Source of the DNA: an uncultured bacterium
GTDB lineage: Bacteria; Cyanobacteriota; Vampirovibrionia; Gastranaerophilales; Gastranaerophilaceae
Reading direction: 5' to 3'
Assembly (NCBI GenBank): GCA_946622415.1
Contig: CAMOPX010000005.1
Location: 1-64,000, forward strand
Length of the DNA: 64,000 bases
Notes under the pieces: generated by a model
Databases searched by the model: none
Told to the model about the DNA's origin: nothing
Seen by the model: only the letters and a program-made list of their open reading frames with translations
Program-made: the position numbers and the translations under genes
Part shown: piece by piece, positions 141-6,417 of the stretch
Position numbering within the stretch: the first letter of the stretch is position 1
How the letters are laid out: each line of letters opens with the position of its first letter

Positions 141-176
141 ATCAAAAAAGACTACACTTGATAAGCAGTGTAGTCT
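141..176 (-). terminator. Rho-independent terminator of the SLH protein gene
   Basis: A perfect 10-bp stem, agactacact (149-158) with agtgtagtct (167-176), and an 8-base loop. On the minus strand it is followed by a run of six T. It lies about 50 bases past the stop of the leftward SLH gene. Confidence 0.8.
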
Positions 177-228: not shown

Positions 229-2184
229 TTAGTATTCACCGAATGCGATTGTAATTTTTTCTTTCGGATTAACTTTTGAAATAGGATTTCCATACGGATC
301 AACAAGGTATGTCAGTTCATCGCCGGTTGTTTGGAATAATCCCATTGTTCCTGTTAATGCGGTTCTTGTTAAATCAACAGGGGCTTTCAGGGTTGTTTTA
401 ATACCGTCTTGATAGCTTCTTCCTGCGGCTTTAAATTTTCCGCTTAATAATTCCGATGTTCCGACACCTGTTTGGTCTAATAAGCCTTCAGCTGCATTGG
501 ATAATCCTATGGCAGCACCACCTATGGTTCTTCCTGCGGTACCTATTAATGTTCCCGCCCAAGTGAATGGCATTTGAACAAGTCTCATTGCACCGTTAAT
601 TTCTTTTTTCCTTTGTACTTTTGCGGTTAATATTTGTTTTGGTAACATTGCCTTACATCCCTTGCAATCTATAATTTGATTGAAGGATAATCTTATGCTG
701 CCGGCATTGTTTTTTGTAGGTCTTGTTACTTCAACAATTTTACCTCTAACGGTTGAACCGCACGGGAAAGTTTTTCCGTCGATTGTAATTTCAGAAGTTG
801 TTGTTGCAGCGAATTGTTCTCCGACATTAACGTGTTTTGCGTTAATAATATCGTTCATAGTTAATTCAAGGGTAGGAATTGTGATTCTTTGTTCTTTTTC
901 TATGAAGGTTTTACCGCCTAAATCTTGCGTTGCGGTTTTTGTTGATTTATCGTAACCGCCTGCAAGGCGCATTCCTTGTAACATTGCACTTGTTTCGGCA
1001 CGGGTTGCTTTATCGTTCGGTCTTATGTAATCTTGGTTGCGTTCATTTTTTAATGCACCGTTTTCAATAGCTTTTGCAACGCATTCTCTTGCCCAGCAAG
1101 GTACTTTTCCGCCATCTTTGTATTGTGACAATATTTCATCTGCTTTAGCGGAATCCATCGGACAATTTATACCTTTTGCCATAATTGTTAGTGCTTCGCT
1201 TCTTGTAACGTTATCATTAGGTGCAAATGTGTTTGGGGTTTTGCCTGCAACCATATTTTCGCTTGCGGCTTTTGATATGTAATTGTGTGCCCAGTGCGAT
1301 GACGGAACATCTCTGAATGTCAATGTTTCACAATTTGATGTTGTATCAAGGTTATATCCTTTGACAACCATTGTTGCAAGCTCGGCTCTTGATACTTTTC
1401 TGTTTGGTTTAAACATTCCGTCAGGATATCCTTCCAGTACACATTGTTCCGTTAATCTGTTGATATCGGATGCAGCCCAGTAGCTATCAAATACATCGGG
1501 ATATTGTTGAGATGTTATATCGGCTGCAGCTCCTGTCATACCTAAACATCCGCAAGGTTCTTTTGTTACTTTAATTATATCCATATGAGTGGATGATGAT
1601 ACGTTTTTCGGACAATCGCAGTTTAATTTTGGTATTTCTTCCGAACTGATAATCGGAGTAGCTGCGCCTGTCGGACATCCGCAGCCGCATTCAACCGGAA
1701 CACCTTTGTATTTAGGTGTTAATAAAGATTCATTTATGGTTGCGTTATTTAAATCTTCACCTACCTGTGTTGTGTTGGAGTTTGAATAAATTGCACTCGG
1801 ATAAGCATAAGTTTGATGATTGTAAGGTTGTGTTTCTACACATGGAGCTGCTGCACCTGTGTTACAACCACAATCTTCTTTTTGTACTTTATTGCATCCG
1901 CAATCAGATTTTTCTTTTTTACAAGGATCTGTTGGTACTGCTGCTCCTGTTTCACAATCGCAATTTTTCTTTCTAAAAGGATTAAAACTTTTTTTCTCGC
2001 AATCGCAATTTTTCTTTTTACATTTTGCACATGTTGCATTATCCGGTGTTACGATTTCGGATGTTGATTTATTACAGTCACAATCGGTATTTAATGGACA
2101 CGCTCCTAGTGTCATAGGTACCGTTAATGCAAAAGCGCAGAATGTCATTGTTGCGCCTGATAAAAGCATTCTTTTTATAGTCAT
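229..2184 (-). CDS. Cysteine-rich SLH-domain envelope protein
   Basis: A 651-residue exported protein. A signal peptide covers residues 1-28 and ends LGAC, which could be a lipobox with Cys29 as the lipidated residue. Residues 30-220 carry many CDC, CGC and NCDC clusters, four of them followed by TGAA-type segments (near 79, 109, 172 and 217). Three SLH domains follow (about 230-277, 288-338 and 352-408), recognisable by phrases such as GYPDGMFKPN...SRAE and APNDNVTRSE. The C-terminal 230 residues are unassigned. SLH domains bind cell-wall polymers, and in cyanobacteria they anchor outer-membrane porins to peptidoglycan. No beta-barrel region is obvious here. A strong ribosome site (aaaggagg) precedes the ATG. 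Probably monocistronic with the terminator at 141-176. The function of the cysteine region is unknown. Confidence 0.85.
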   Translation of the reverse strand: MTIKRMLLSGATMTFCAFALTVPMTLGACPLNTDCDCNKSTSEIVTPDNATCAKCKKKNCDCEKKSFNPFRKKNCDCETGAAVPTDPCKKEKSDCGCNKVQKEDCGCNTGAAAPCVETQPYNHQTYAYPSAIYSNSNTTQVGEDLNNATINESLLTPKYKGVPVECGCGCPTGAATPIISSEEIPKLNCDCPKNVSSSTHMDIIKVTKEPCGCLGMTGAAADITSQQYPDVFDSYWAASDINRLTEQCVLEGYPDGMFKPNRKVSRAELATMVVKGYNLDTTSNCETLTFRDVPSSHWAHNYISKAASENMVAGKTPNTFAPNDNVTRSEALTIMAKGINCPMDSAKADEILSQYKDGGKVPCWARECVAKAIENGALKNERNQDYIRPNDKATRAETSAMLQGMRLAGGYDKSTKTATQDLGGKTFIEKEQRITIPTLELTMNDIINAKHVNVGEQFAATTTSEITIDGKTFPCGSTVRGKIVEVTRPTKNNAGSIRLSFNQIIDCKGCKAMLPKQILTAKVQRKKEINGAMRLVQMPFTWAGTLIGTAGRTIGGAAIGLSNAAEGLLDQTGVGTSELLSGKFKAAGRSYQDGIKTTLKAPVDLTRTALTGTMGLFQTTGDELTYLVDPYGNPISKVNPKEKITIAFGEY

Positions 2185-2304: not shown

Positions 2305-3081
2305 TTATTTTAATTCCGTCAAATTTATTTCCTGTTGAATATCAAAAAACAACTTCGCACTTTGCCTGAATGTTTCCGGGTCTTTTGATACATGGAATGA
2401 AATTTTGCCTTTATCTTTTTGGGGATTATAAATTTCCTTTTTTACAATTTCCGCTAAACAAATTGCAGGGTTATAGTATTCCGTATCAACAATATCTTTA
2501 AATATATTAACCAAATAGGGATAATGTGTACAACCCAGTACAATTCTTTTTGCATCTTTTGCAATTTGAAGTTTTGATTTTATTAATTCTATTGAAGATT
2601 TTTCATTATATAGTCTGTTTTCAACAATTTCAACAAAGCCTGTGCAATCAATTCCTATTATATTCAGGTTATTATTATATTTTTTGATTTCCGTTTCATA
2701 TTTTTTTGAATTTATTGTTGCTTTTGTAGCTAAAATTGCAACAATATCATTATTTTTTAAATTTTCCTGAATTGATTTTGCAACGGTTTGAATTAAAGGA
2801 AAAATTCTTAATTTGCCTTCAAAATCTGCTTTTAATTTATCATACGCAACAGCGGATGTTGTATTACATGCAAAAACAACATTTTTTACGTTATTTTTGA
2901 CAAAAAAATCCAAAATTGCTTTTGTGTAATTGTATATTTCTTCAGGGCGTTTGGTTCCGTATGGAACATTTTTTGTATCACCAAAATAGATATAATCTTG
3001 ATTTGGCATGAGCTTATACATTTCAACAAGTACGCTTAAACCGCCAACCCCGCTATCTAATACTCCTATTGGTTTATTCAT
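2305..3081 (-). CDS. murI: Glutamate racemase
   Basis: 258 residues, usual length for the family. It converts L- to D-glutamate for the peptidoglycan stem peptide in the cytoplasm. The N-terminal DSGVGG motif (residues 9-14) and the two catalytic cysteine contexts, FACNTTSA (near 71) and LGCTHYP (near 183), are all present. The start codon overlaps the stop of the upstream amidase gene (TAATG), so the two are almost certainly co-transcribed and translationally coupled, joining precursor synthesis with wall remodelling. Confidence 0.95.
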   Translation of the reverse strand: MNKPIGVLDSGVGGLSVLVEMYKLMPNQDYIYFGDTKNVPYGTKRPEEIYNYTKAILDFFVKNNVKNVVFACNTTSAVAYDKLKADFEGKLRIFPLIQTVAKSIQENLKNNDIVAILATKATINSKKYETEIKKYNNNLNIIGIDCTGFVEIVENRLYNEKSSIELIKSKLQIAKDAKRIVLGCTHYPYLVNIFKDIVDTEYYNPAICLAEIVKKEIYNPQKDKGKISFHVSKDPETFRQSAKLFFDIQQEINLTELK

Positions 3082-5120
3082 TATTTTACCTTTAAATATT
3101 CAAGAATTCCGTCTACAATTGCTGTTGCTACTTCTTCTTGCCTTTGTTTTGTCATTAGTTTTTCTCTTTCAACAGGGTTTGAAATAAATCCCATCTCCAT
3201 AAGAACACTTGGTGCTTCTGTATGATTTATAACATAAAAACGAGATTTTATCACGCCTCTATCTTTTGTATCCCATTTTTTTAAATTTTTATCCGATGAA
3301 AATATAGCATGCATTGTATTAGCAAGTTCAAGACTGTCATCTTTATAATAATGGACTTCTAAACCATAGGTAACATTTTGTACTGTTGAATTGGCATGGA
3401 TTGAAACATATATATCGGGTGAAATTTCATTTGAATAATTAACTCTGTCCTCAAGAGGAATAAATATATCTTCGCTTCTTGTCATATAAACGTGAACATT
3501 TTTTTTCTTTAGTTTTTCTTCAACCATTTTTGCAACCTTAAGATTTAAATTCTTTTCATAAACAACACCGCCCCCGATTGCTCCGCAATCCGTACCGCCA
3601 TGACCGGGGTCAAGAACGACTTTTTTCAATGCGCTTATTGTGGTTGATTCCGGTTTTTTCTTTTTTGGTTCTTTATAGATTATTTTTGAATTATCTTCTT
3701 TTGGTACATAAACAACATTTATATTTCCTGATTTTGATTCATCTTTTTTGTAATTTTTGTCTTTTGAAAGTGCATCTTCCTCGGGTATTTTCCCTGCTGC
3801 CGCTATTTTTTCTTCTTTTGATGCAATTATAATAGCATCTTCATTTATTTTTTCCGCTTGCGGTTTTTCTTTAAAACAGAGTTTTATTGATTTTGCATTA
3901 CTTTCTACGTTTGCATAAGAGAAGTTTAAATTTTTAGAAGGGATAATGTATCTTGTTTTGTCTTTTGATATTTTCATTGTTTGAATATTCAAGTCTGAAT
4001 TTTTAAGAAGTTTTTTTAATGCGGTTTCATCAAAATCCGGTAAATTATTAATATCCAAATAATAACTGTCATTTAATTCAAAAATATCGTAAGCAACGGA
4101 TTTATCGAAATTTAAATCAAAAATATAATATCCGTTTTCATTTTTGGTTAAGTTGTATGAAAGAAGCTTTGCATTATTAAGGGCAAAAGAAGTATTTAAA
4201 ACATGACTTCTGTGAGAAATAAATAAACTTTGGTTATCCGGAGAAATTACGGCTCTATAATCTTTTAAACTTTCTCCGAGTATCGTTAGTTTTATTTTTT
4301 TATCGTTAAGTTTATTTATTGCAAGAGTGGCTTTTGTATTTTTTACGGCCCCCGGAATATTGTATGTTTTATTTTCAAGTGTCGGTATTATATTACTGCT
4401 ATCAAGTATAATTTCCGCTCTCGTATTGTTGTCAAAATATTTAATTTTTTGAAGCGAAATTTCGCCTATACCTTTTAAAATAAGACCTTCCGAATTTTGT
4501 GTAACTAGAGACAAATAGTATTTGTTTTGCAATTTGGGAATAATTTCAAGTTTATAGTTGTTACTGTTAAAAATAATATCTGTTGCCGTATTTTGTACAA
4601 CGGCAGATTTATCCATATCTCCGGATAAAGTATAAAATTTATGCTGAATTGAATTTTGTACAAGTTGATTATTGTATTTTACGATTATATTTTTTCCATC
4701 CGAATACGTTTTAAAATTCGGTAAATCTTTAGCATTATTTAATGTGAAAACTACTCTGACGATATCCGTATCATGTTGTAAAAGGTCAATTCTGTTTACA
4801 ATTTTGGAATTTTTAAGTTTATAGTATCTGCTCCCTTCGGGAAGTGTTGAATTTGGTATATCGATAACATATCCTGCGGGATTAGACAGAGTAAAGGTTG
4901 TTATATTATTAATCAAATTTAGGGAATCGGATTTATCGGGAACGGGTACATAAACGCCTGTAGTACTATCTCTAAAATCTCCTTTTCCTCTAATTAAAAC
5001 TGTTTTATCGGAATTATCGAGTACTAAATCATGCACCTGAAAATTTGCAGCAAAACATGCGCTTTGTATAAAAAACGCAATAATAAACAATATAATTGCT
5101 GTTATATTTTTAAAAGACAA
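3081..5120 (-). CDS. N-acetylmuramoyl-L-alanine amidase with AMIN-like N-terminal region
   Basis: 679 residues. A signal peptide (about 1-25, ending CFA) leads into roughly 450 residues of beta-rich sequence resembling repeated AMIN domains, then a charged linker. The C-terminal amidase_3 zinc hydrolase domain covers about 497-677. Zinc and catalytic residues are visible in DPGHGG, the Glu of YEKNLNL, SIHAN and LMEMGFISN. It would cleave the lactyl-amide bond between MurNAc and L-Ala in the periplasm, for cell separation or wall turnover. The start is TTG, six bases after a gagg ribosome site. It is the first gene of a two-gene operon with murI. Confidence 0.92.
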   Translation of the reverse strand: MSFKNITAIILFIIAFFIQSACFAANFQVHDLVLDNSDKTVLIRGKGDFRDSTTGVYVPVPDKSDSLNLINNITTFTLSNPAGYVIDIPNSTLPEGSRYYKLKNSKIVNRIDLLQHDTDIVRVVFTLNNAKDLPNFKTYSDGKNIIVKYNNQLVQNSIQHKFYTLSGDMDKSAVVQNTATDIIFNSNNYKLEIIPKLQNKYYLSLVTQNSEGLILKGIGEISLQKIKYFDNNTRAEIILDSSNIIPTLENKTYNIPGAVKNTKATLAINKLNDKKIKLTILGESLKDYRAVISPDNQSLFISHRSHVLNTSFALNNAKLLSYNLTKNENGYYIFDLNFDKSVAYDIFELNDSYYLDINNLPDFDETALKKLLKNSDLNIQTMKISKDKTRYIIPSKNLNFSYANVESNAKSIKLCFKEKPQAEKINEDAIIIASKEEKIAAAGKIPEEDALSKDKNYKKDESKSGNINVVYVPKEDNSKIIYKEPKKKKPESTTISALKKVVLDPGHGGTDCGAIGGGVVYEKNLNLKVAKMVEEKLKKKNVHVYMTRSEDIFIPLEDRVNYSNEISPDIYVSIHANSTVQNVTYGLEVHYYKDDSLELANTMHAIFSSDKNLKKWDTKDRGVIKSRFYVINHTEAPSVLMEMGFISNPVEREKLMTKQRQEEVATAIVDGILEYLKVK

Positions 5121-5257
5121 ATTATTCCTCTTTATTAATATTATTTTATCATTAAGTTTGTAAAAGTTTCTAAATCAGATTACCGAATTTTATGATAAAA
5201 ATAATATCTGATAGCAATACAATAATTTTAAAAAATAAAAAATTATATTATAAAAAT

Positions 5258-5524
5258 CTAAACAGATGTCTTTTGTTTAATATATGCCGCTAAACATGTT
5301 GCAAGCTGATCGGGACAGCTTGTGGGTTTTGAGCCGCAGGTTATACCTTTTAATTTTTCCGCTACATCATTAATATTCATTCCGATAACTAAACTTCTGA
5401 TGCCTTTTAAATTTCCGTTACATCCGCCGATAAATTCAACATCAACTATAACATCATCTTCTAATTCTATATTCATAATTTTACAGCATGTGCCTTGTGT
5501 TTGGTATTGTATTGTTTCTTTCAT
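5258..5524 (-). CDS. TSCPD-domain protein (TIGR03905-like)
   Basis: 88 residues from the ATG at 5524. That start is preferred over an in-frame one 33 bases upstream because aaggaga lies six bases before it. The sequence carries paired cysteines (GTCCK, ITCGSKPTSCPDQLA) and the TSCPD signature. This small domain also occurs at the C-terminus of B12-dependent ribonucleotide reductases. The stand-alone family has no firmly assigned role; metal binding through the cysteines is inference. It is divergent from the downstream LD-carboxypeptidase gene. Confidence 0.8.
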   Translation of the reverse strand: MKETIQYQTQGTCCKIMNIELEDDVIVDVEFIGGCNGNLKGIRSLVIGMNINDVAEKLKGITCGSKPTSCPDQLATCLAAYIKQKTSV

Positions 5525-5586
5525 AAACTCTCCTTTTTGCTTATAAAATTCTACCATATAACTGTTTTAATGGCCAAATTTTAATG

Positions 5587-5592
5587 TATAAT
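5587..5592 (+). promoter_or_regulatory. -10 box giving a leaderless mRNA
   Basis: TATAAT ends six bases before the ATG at 5599, so the expected transcription start falls on the A of the start codon. No ribosome-binding site is present. The box also occupies codons 2-3 of the longer open frame beginning at 5584, which argues against that earlier start. Confidence 0.6.
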
Positions 5593-5598
5593 CTTGTT

Positions 5599-6417
5599 AT
5601 GAATAAAATTAAAACATTGGCTCTTGTTACGCCGAGCGGAAATATTAGGGATTATGAAGATATAAATAATAAAATTGAAATATTAAAGAAGTATTTTAAT
5701 GTTAAAAAATTTTATGATGAAAATGTATCTTACAACTACTTATCCGATTCGGATGAAAACCGTGCAAGATATTTTGAACAGGCTTTTTTGGATGATGAAA
5801 CAGATATTGTACTATCTATTAGAGGCGGGTACGGTGCAATAAGAATTGTTGATAAAATTGACTATAATAAAATAAAAAATCAAAATAAGATTTATTTGGG
5901 TTCATCCGATGCAACAATTTTATTGTGTGCATTATCAAAAAATACAAACATAAAATGTTTTCACAGCTTAATGATGACAAACGGTTTTGTTGAAAATATT
6001 GAAAAAAATATTGAAATTATTAATTCTGAACGTTTTGATATAAATTTTGATACTATAAAAAAAGGTAATTTAAAAGGAAAACTCTGGGGCGGAAATTTGT
6101 CGAGTTTGGTTAGTTTGATGTCGGATGATTCTTTTATTCCTGATGATGATATCATTCTTTTTGTTGAGGATTTGAATGAACCTTTGTATAAAATTGATAA
6201 AATGTTATTTGAGATATACAGAAATAAACAATTAAAAAATAAAATTAAAGGAATAATATTCGGAGATTTTTATTTGGATGATAATGAAATAATGCCGTTA
6301 TTAAAGGAATATTCGGAATTTTTTAATGTTCCTGCGGTTGTAACAAAAGATATTACACACAAAATGAATAACATGACCGTTCCTTTTATGAAACATACAG
6401 ATATAAATGCGTTTTAA
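5599..6417 (+). CDS. LD-carboxypeptidase (peptidase S66, LdcA/MccF type)
   Basis: 272 residues, slightly shorter than typical LdcA (about 300). It would remove the terminal D-Ala from the muropeptide tetrapeptide during cell-wall recycling in the cytoplasm. Visible family features are LVTPSGN at the N-terminus, the nucleophile context GSSDAT with Ser103, the Glu in LFVEDLNEP (near 190) and a His in DITHKMNN (near 254), matching the Ser-Glu-His triad. An in-frame ATG at 5584 is rejected because the TATAAT box lies inside it. A MccF-like role in peptide-antibiotic immunity is the alternative. Confidence 0.87.
   Translation: MNKIKTLALVTPSGNIRDYEDINNKIEILKKYFNVKKFYDENVSYNYLSDSDENRARYFEQAFLDDETDIVLSIRGGYGAIRIVDKIDYNKIKNQNKIYLGSSDATILLCALSKNTNIKCFHSLMMTNGFVENIEKNIEIINSERFDINFDTIKKGNLKGKLWGGNLSSLVSLMSDDSFIPDDDIILFVEDLNEPLYKIDKMLFEIYRNKQLKNKIKGIIFGDFYLDDNEIMPLLKEYSEFFNVPAVVTKDITHKMNNMTVPFMKHTDINAF

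Follow-up and report, generated by a model that had tools for sequence, protein, structure and literature searches.

The gene at positions 229–2184 of the minus strand encodes what is best read as an SLH-anchored envelope protein of the Gastranaerophilales, whose disordered and probably disulfide-bonded head carries a short linear motif recurring throughout the order, a reading that may be given a probability of roughly 0.5. The window (the whole 64,000-nucleotide stretch that was analysed) is the beginning of a contig within a 1.88-Mb draft genome, and the 651-residue exported protein was delineated from the list of open reading frames, its translation, its Pfam SLH match and its relatives. 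On the same strand a signal peptide (residues ~1–28, positions 2101–2184), recognised from the sequence and from orthologue comparison, is followed by a Cys-rich head (residues 29–226, positions 1507–2100), delineated from composition, AlphaFold modelling and orthologues and mostly predicted to be disordered, by three SLH domains (residues 226–413, positions 946–1509, from Pfam and VIA-align) and by the remainder of a VirB10-like domain (residues 427–651, positions 232–906, from alignment, models, Foldseek, profile comparison and VIA-align). A terminator-like hairpin lies past the gene end (positions 149–176, minus strand, identified by pattern match). Positions 1500–2100 of the window, read on the minus strand, correspond to residues 29–228 of this open reading frame, and it is here that the initial annotation had placed a Cys-rich region of CDC and CGC pairs ahead of three SLH domains, a description that proved accurate in position and, but for one detail of the phrase, in content.

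The only Pfam family above its cut-off in the 651-residue protein is SLH (PF00395, three stretches, 107.2 bits against a cut-off of 20.8, E = 3.8e-31), with Arrestin_C remaining sub-threshold. SLH domains 1–3 bear SRAE, TRSE and TRAE motifs, respectively, and the broad pyruvyl transferase family PF04230 is present in all six genomes tested. A paralogue with 29% identity (L002, G000:C15:41240–42379) covers the SLH and C-terminal part and has neither the Cys-rich head nor a TG(A/G/F/M)A word, and at another locus (L112) two adjoining genes of the SLH protein cluster, at 2370–3782 and 3983–5827, suggest a tandem duplication.

A match to the SLH protein was returned by 56 of 57 other related genomes (58 including the window's own), the best matches in G048 and G057 lying mainly over the SLH part and probably not representing orthologues. 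The 76 loci examined belong mostly to Candidatus Gastranaerophilales, the remainder to unclassified or 'Cyanobacteria' bins. For conservation counts, 156 sequences were reduced to 153 with a recognisable start and to 118 distinct ones; once two truncated window-gene copies had been taken out, 116 remained, on which codons, G-x-A-x-P sites and first phrase counts were tallied, and excluding the partial copies L202 and L225 left 114. Residue-level conservation was read from a 39-sequence alignment, composed of the window protein and 38 sequences of its wider family, hand-picked from 72 usable loci and all sharing at least 45% identity with it. Upstream in the window, the two genes scanned with Pfam are murI and an AMIN-amidase. 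These were rejected as operon partners, since they accompany the gene in none of the 76 loci (upstream sequence being limited to 3 kb or less in nine), and no other neighbour is constant, the commonest neighbour cluster appearing in 22 of the 76. Type IV secretion genes are not found among the two scanned neighbours, the flanks of the other orthologues having been clustered without names.

Cysteine accounts for 10.9% of residues 27–227 (22 residues), and its nine C-x-C pairs (CDC at residues 35, 60, 75 and 189, CGC at 95, 105, 166, 168 and 211) compare with 2.4 expected, a number reached in one of 20,000 composition-preserving shuffles, none of which produced two TGAA words. This composition is a property of the family: head cysteine reaches at least 5% in 111 of 114 orthologue sequences, with a median of 9.35% (range 2.5 to 14) versus 2.3% downstream of the head. 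Summed over the 114 heads, C-x-C occurs 412 times (205 expected) and C-x-x-C 383 times (202 expected), versus 24 occurrences of CC where 204 were expected. Cysteines 29, 37, 52, 55, 60, 62 and 107 are at least 90% conserved in the 39-sequence alignment, and in other families the spacing shifts to C-x-x-C and to a Pro-rich 'PCDPC' arrangement. AlphaFold modelling based on the 39 sequences gave pLDDT below 50 for residues 1–189. At the DNA level the head is underlain by no tandem array, save one 9-base unit in two copies. Had the repeat been absent from all orthologues, as the initial annotation allowed, it would have represented a strain-specific low-complexity expansion; a search of related SLH proteins instead located TG(A/G)A in 114 of 114 heads, and such an expansion was rejected because orthologues throughout the order keep both head and phrase, the latter without a tandem array. 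A possible lipobox, also proposed at the outset, did not withstand comparison. The lipobox pattern matched by LGAC is found in two of 28 same-genus sequences (L001 and L027, among L001 and L005–L031), the other 26 reading F-(A/S)-(A/S)-C at this site, and although the pattern occurs somewhere within residues 9–42 of 40 of 116 sequences, the distant sequences inspected among these match beyond the signal peptide. The lipobox-like LGAC is not a family feature, and the conserved lipobox by which lipoproteins are recognised is absent here.

The redox setting of the order bears on how these cysteines may be used. VKOR (PF07884) was detected in six of six genomes tested, and all five proteins scanned, including the 404-residue protein of the window's genome with its CPYC motif in the DSBA domain, are VKOR-DsbA fusions. 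The fusion of the window's genome (L232, G000:C1:88130–88549) is a candidate disulfide-forming enzyme of this gut lineage. Another gut bin, 'Clostridium sp. CAG:768', may also belong to Gastranaerophilales. The VKOR-DsbA of that bin complements E. coli dsb mutants, according to a published study (PMC12453122). Disulfides in the head are plausible, given these fusions and a cysteine spacing in which C-x-C and C-x-x-C occur about twice as often as expected and CC less often. Only 42 of 114 heads contain an even number of cysteines, so that some of these are likely to be free or to engage in intermolecular bonds.

A second feature of the head is a phrase that the initial annotation gave as four copies of TGAA(A/V/T)P. 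Four TGAA words are indeed present and three continue with proline: TGAAVP at residue 79 (positions 1933–1950), TGAAAP at residue 109 (1843–1860) and TGAATP at residue 172 (1654–1671). The fourth departs from this form, reading TGAAAD at residue 217 (1519–1536), directly ahead of SLH1. All four are on the minus strand and were read from the sequence, the last two also from the 39-sequence alignment, in which T172, G173 and A175 of the third phrase and T217, G218 and A220 of the fourth are invariant, and many of the columns flanking them vary. A conserved QTYAYP element (positions 1798–1815, minus strand) has invariant Q124, Y126, Y128 and P129 in the same alignment. Across the family TG(A/G)A is present at a median of three copies per head (1 to 9), and in the final 25 residues ahead of SLH1 the word is TG(A/G)A in 97 sequences, TG(M/F)A in 13 and begins with a residue other than Thr in four (n = 114). 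It is apparently the amino acids rather than the DNA that are kept, since every synonymous codon is used among 354 phrase copies and the third bases are less self-complementary than expected, even though GGNGCNGCNGCNCC by its nature reads the same on both strands. Phrase codons broadly but not fully resemble those of the genes themselves (with ACT at 8% versus 26% and GGC at 39% versus 26%), and on the same two grounds of codon diversity and third-base complementarity a DNA-level element such as an uptake word or palindrome was judged unlikely. Such codon diversity suggests that selection has acted on the phrase as amino acids.

This phrase also extends beyond the SLH gene. Of 146 genomes in the order, 72 contain the pattern TG(A/G)A(A/V)P(I/V), as opposed to two and five of the 146 for control patterns in which the same codons were reordered. 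A hand tally divides the 72 genomes into 41 in which a match in another gene was read, four with an unread match, and 27 with matches in the SLH gene only. Of 194 genomes drawn from the phylum, 109 fall outside the order; together these yielded 32 matches, versus 58 for the backward-read pattern (hand-counted), and thus no enrichment. The 72 do not include the window's own genome, whose phrases have other endings (P-T, P-C, P-I after a T, or D); a looser pattern finds three phrases in its SLH gene and one antisense chance match (C10:8312). This match, together with one cluster of four and two single antisense frames, was left out of the carrier counts, such frames arising because GGNGCNGCNGCNCC is self-reverse-complementary, or by chance.

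After segments shorter than 90 residues and SLH-like ones had been dropped, the non-SLH carriers formed about 14 groups without mutual blastp similarity at E = 1e-4, the group sizes being slightly high as several genes are represented by two loci (L181/L194, L171/L226, L173/L227). By visual assessment, on which the linkers were also identified, six groups have a signal peptide and five do not, and in three the 5' end is missing. The six comprise three groups of small exported proteins, most of them containing Cys, one exported group of about 325 residues, a secretin and an LTXXQ-like Cys-rich protein, and the phrase copies often lie within stretches rich in small residues. Above Pfam cut-offs, carrier L203 matches Secretin (E = 1.6e-38), L208 DUF6973 and L149 DUF5649, with L148 falling below the LTXXQ cut-off and nothing above cut-off for L170, L173, L177, L197, L181, L146 or seven further carriers. 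Secretin copies of the phrase, of which there are often two, are located in a Gly-rich linker, for example STGGAAPIKGFMTGAAS. Of 31 secretin loci, 23 passed the extraction filter, and 20 of these contain a (T/S/M)G(A/G/S)A match (outside the linker in L253, with a double TGFAS in L259 missed by the pattern). Across the secretin loci (L203, L213, L235–L262) paired TG(A/G/F)A(A/S) words are frequent in a fast-changing Gly-rich linker before the core. The LTXXQ-like exported protein (L148:1103–2041, plus strand) combines a long Cys repeat of the CDCDKKSPCD type with one PTGAAVPV, and a protein of about 300 residues without visible signal peptide (L177, L178, L220, L142, L143, L153, L154, L156), for which L177 shows no clear Pfam family, has TGGAA(P/S)-like words in its Gly/Ser-rich middle.

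As it is kept across the order and recurs in unrelated proteins, the phrase probably serves as a common tag, for docking or for modification, and not as random filler. Taken further, and with somewhat less assurance than the main reading, T-G-(A/G/F/M)-A-(A)-(P) may tentatively be considered an order-wide linear motif served by a common receptor or modifying enzyme, a shared envelope-assembly code in which a disulfide-linked SLH protein with a VirB10-like ring domain would be a main carrier; the secretin, the small Cys-rich exported proteins, and LTXXQ-like and adhesin-like proteins would, on the same tentative footing, be its other carriers. In a literature search that covered subscription papers and preprints thinly, spellings of the phrase turned up only in a mycobacterial peptide study.

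Structural models shed light on the part of the protein that follows the head. With the 39 sequences as input, AlphaFold modelled the SLH triad well and the C-terminal beta domain fairly, and Foldseek ranked the SLH domains of Sap and SpaA highest, followed by ComB10, CagY, TrwE and the X. citri VirB10. VIA-align superimposed residues 226–411 on 3pyw with Z = 20.0 (176 residues, rmsd 2.8). For residues 193–650 the match was 3jqo_b, a chain of the type IV secretion system (T4SS) outer-membrane complex, at Z = 9.0 (106 residues, rmsd 3.4, 10% identity), and a second model (residues 187–651) matched the same chain at Z = 8.9 (107 residues, rmsd 3.5); since values of 7 to 8 are common in models without a clear match, the VirB10 assignment relies on the consistency of the T4SS matches and on a profile link. 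Further T4SS chains follow down to Z = 6.0 in the first model, unrelated entries not exceeding 4.4 bar one SLH-bearing cytochrome, and in the second down to 5.9 (other VirB10 relatives 5.9 to 8.7), the next entries scoring 5.6 and 4.0. The profile link joins the C-terminal part to small exported TrbI-like proteins found in the order (probability 95.8, E = 6.9e-9); among them L278 scores above the Pfam TrbI cut-off. These form an exported family of about 250 residues (L278, L279, L283–L285, L287, L290–L293 and G000:C17:29476–30012) with Gly-rich C-terminal segments, found in the window's genome and in many relatives. Large cyanobacterial TrbI proteins were set aside as relatives, giving no significant profile match to the C-terminal part. 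The part following the SLH domains, with one strand preceding them, is thus predicted to adopt the fold of a VirB10 C-terminal domain. Strands at residues 193–210 (positions 1555–1608, minus strand) align with the start of that domain at moderate confidence, based on the model and VIA-align, and because the alignment spans the SLH triad, the latter looks to have been inserted into the VirB10-like domain after its first strands. Residues ~525–633 have pLDDT below 50 in both models, so that the part corresponding to the VirB10 antenna is not reliably modelled, and the invariant glycines within it (G544, G548, G551, G555 and G556 in the 39-sequence alignment) offer only a suggestion of a membrane-spanning hairpin. 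No long coiled coil and no large barrel can be seen in the two models, although residues 525–633 are too uncertain to judge.

Several other explanations have to be weighed against this reading. The initial annotation had left the chemistry of the head between disulfides and metal-thiolates, and while the former alternative gained plausibility from the VKOR-DsbA fusions and the cysteine spacing, the latter, in which C-x-C pairs would bind Zn, Cu or Fe to form a metal-loaded wall layer, now appears very improbable. Dense C-x-C pairs are a metallothionein trait, and nine of them give the head a comparable density. However, the spacing drifts across the order, the protein has no metal-binding Pfam domain, and the two scanned neighbours are the wall genes murI and amidase; as the order has VKOR-DsbA fusions, disulfides are likelier than a metal store. 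Quite unlikely as well is that the head is a neutral, repeat-tolerant linker in which slippage and drift have propagated the cysteines and TGAA words. Its predicted disorder and a copy number varying from 1 to 9 would suit such a filler, but this does not account for third and fourth phrases invariant in 39 sequences amid many variable flanking columns, for the lack of a tandem array, for the rarity of reordered words of the same composition, or for recurrence of the phrase in other proteins.

For the role of the phrase, the main rival is O-glycosylation, by which an order-specific periplasmic enzyme would modify the phrase Thr in flexible linkers and the SLH protein would be a glycoprotein, possible but on balance not expected. 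In its favour, Thr occupies 191 of 230 G-x-A-x-P sites in a region with 6.8% Thr overall (197 when Ser is included), and the copies often lie among small residues. As described for Neisseria (PMC3643930), PglL O-glycosylation likewise uses short sites, mostly in flexible linkers of many exported proteins and with Pro near some of them, there on Ser. The phrase is far stricter than those sites, however; Thr is missing at 39 of the 230 (six have Ser and 33 neither), and five of the roughly 14 non-SLH carrier groups lack a visible signal peptide, which also makes any purely periplasmic tag ill-fitting. As for the C-terminal part, it is rather unlikely that the protein is part of a wall-anchored outer-membrane channel, of a secretion or pilus-like type, whose periplasmic cap would be the Cys-rich head. 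VirB10-family scores of Z 6.0 to 9.0, above unrelated entries (at most 4.4 in the first model and 5.6 in the second), and the profile link to the small TrbI-like proteins are consistent with a channel. Yet Pfam TrbI (PF03743) gives no match to the window protein at E = 1 or better, the large cyanobacterial TrbI proteins give no significant profile match, the neighbours are murI and amidase, and a Z of 9 at about 10% identity denotes a shared fold at most.

The preferred reading is therefore that of an exported structural component of the Gastranaerophilales envelope. Its SLH triad would bind a peptidoglycan-linked wall polymer, as other members of the SLH family do, and its VirB10-like domain would, judging by the predicted fold, probably form a ring or a platform on the outer-membrane side. 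Cysteines of the ~190-residue disordered head may be oxidised by VKOR-DsbA, and the resulting disulfides, within the head, to neighbouring molecules or both, could stiffen or cross-link it. The T-G-x-A-(A)-(P) words would most likely be recognised by a common order-specific partner or modifying enzyme, the same phrase apparently being reused across the order in the linkers of several other proteins.

In known diderm systems, OmpM of Veillonella and SlpA of Deinococcus are SLH tethers that probably link the outer membrane to the wall, and are described as combining an N-terminal SLH domain with a coiled coil and a beta-barrel in the outer membrane (PMC10628300, PMC9388160). The window protein shares with them a diderm host and an SLH domain that, by its family, would bind the wall, yet appears to be of a different design, with a Cys-rich disordered head followed by three SLH domains that are predicted to lie within a VirB10-like domain. 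With Sap of Bacillus anthracis and SpaA of Paenibacillus alvei it has in common three SLH repeats per chain, reflected in the superposition on 3pyw, but the remainder of the protein differs and its host is diderm. The C-terminal domain of VirB10, ComB10, CagY and DotG, which forms the type IV secretion ring, is echoed in the predicted beta fold, but in the window protein an SLH triad appears inserted past the first strands and the Pfam TrbI family is not reached, and the two scanned neighbours are free of T4SS genes. Within a literature search in which subscription papers and preprints were thinly covered, neither VirB10 combined with S-layer homology and SLH, nor Gastranaerophilales combined with S-layer homology, nor Cys-rich SLH envelope proteins were found.

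Gastranaerophilales inhabit animal guts, and as their records are mostly metagenome-assembled genomes, their envelope is largely unexplored. If the reading offered here is true, a conserved protein in which SLH and VirB10-like domains are combined would provide a novel link of the wall to the outer membrane, in a diderm lineage beside the cyanobacteria, and the reuse of one word in unrelated linkers across the order suggests a modification or docking system that may so far have gone unrecognised.
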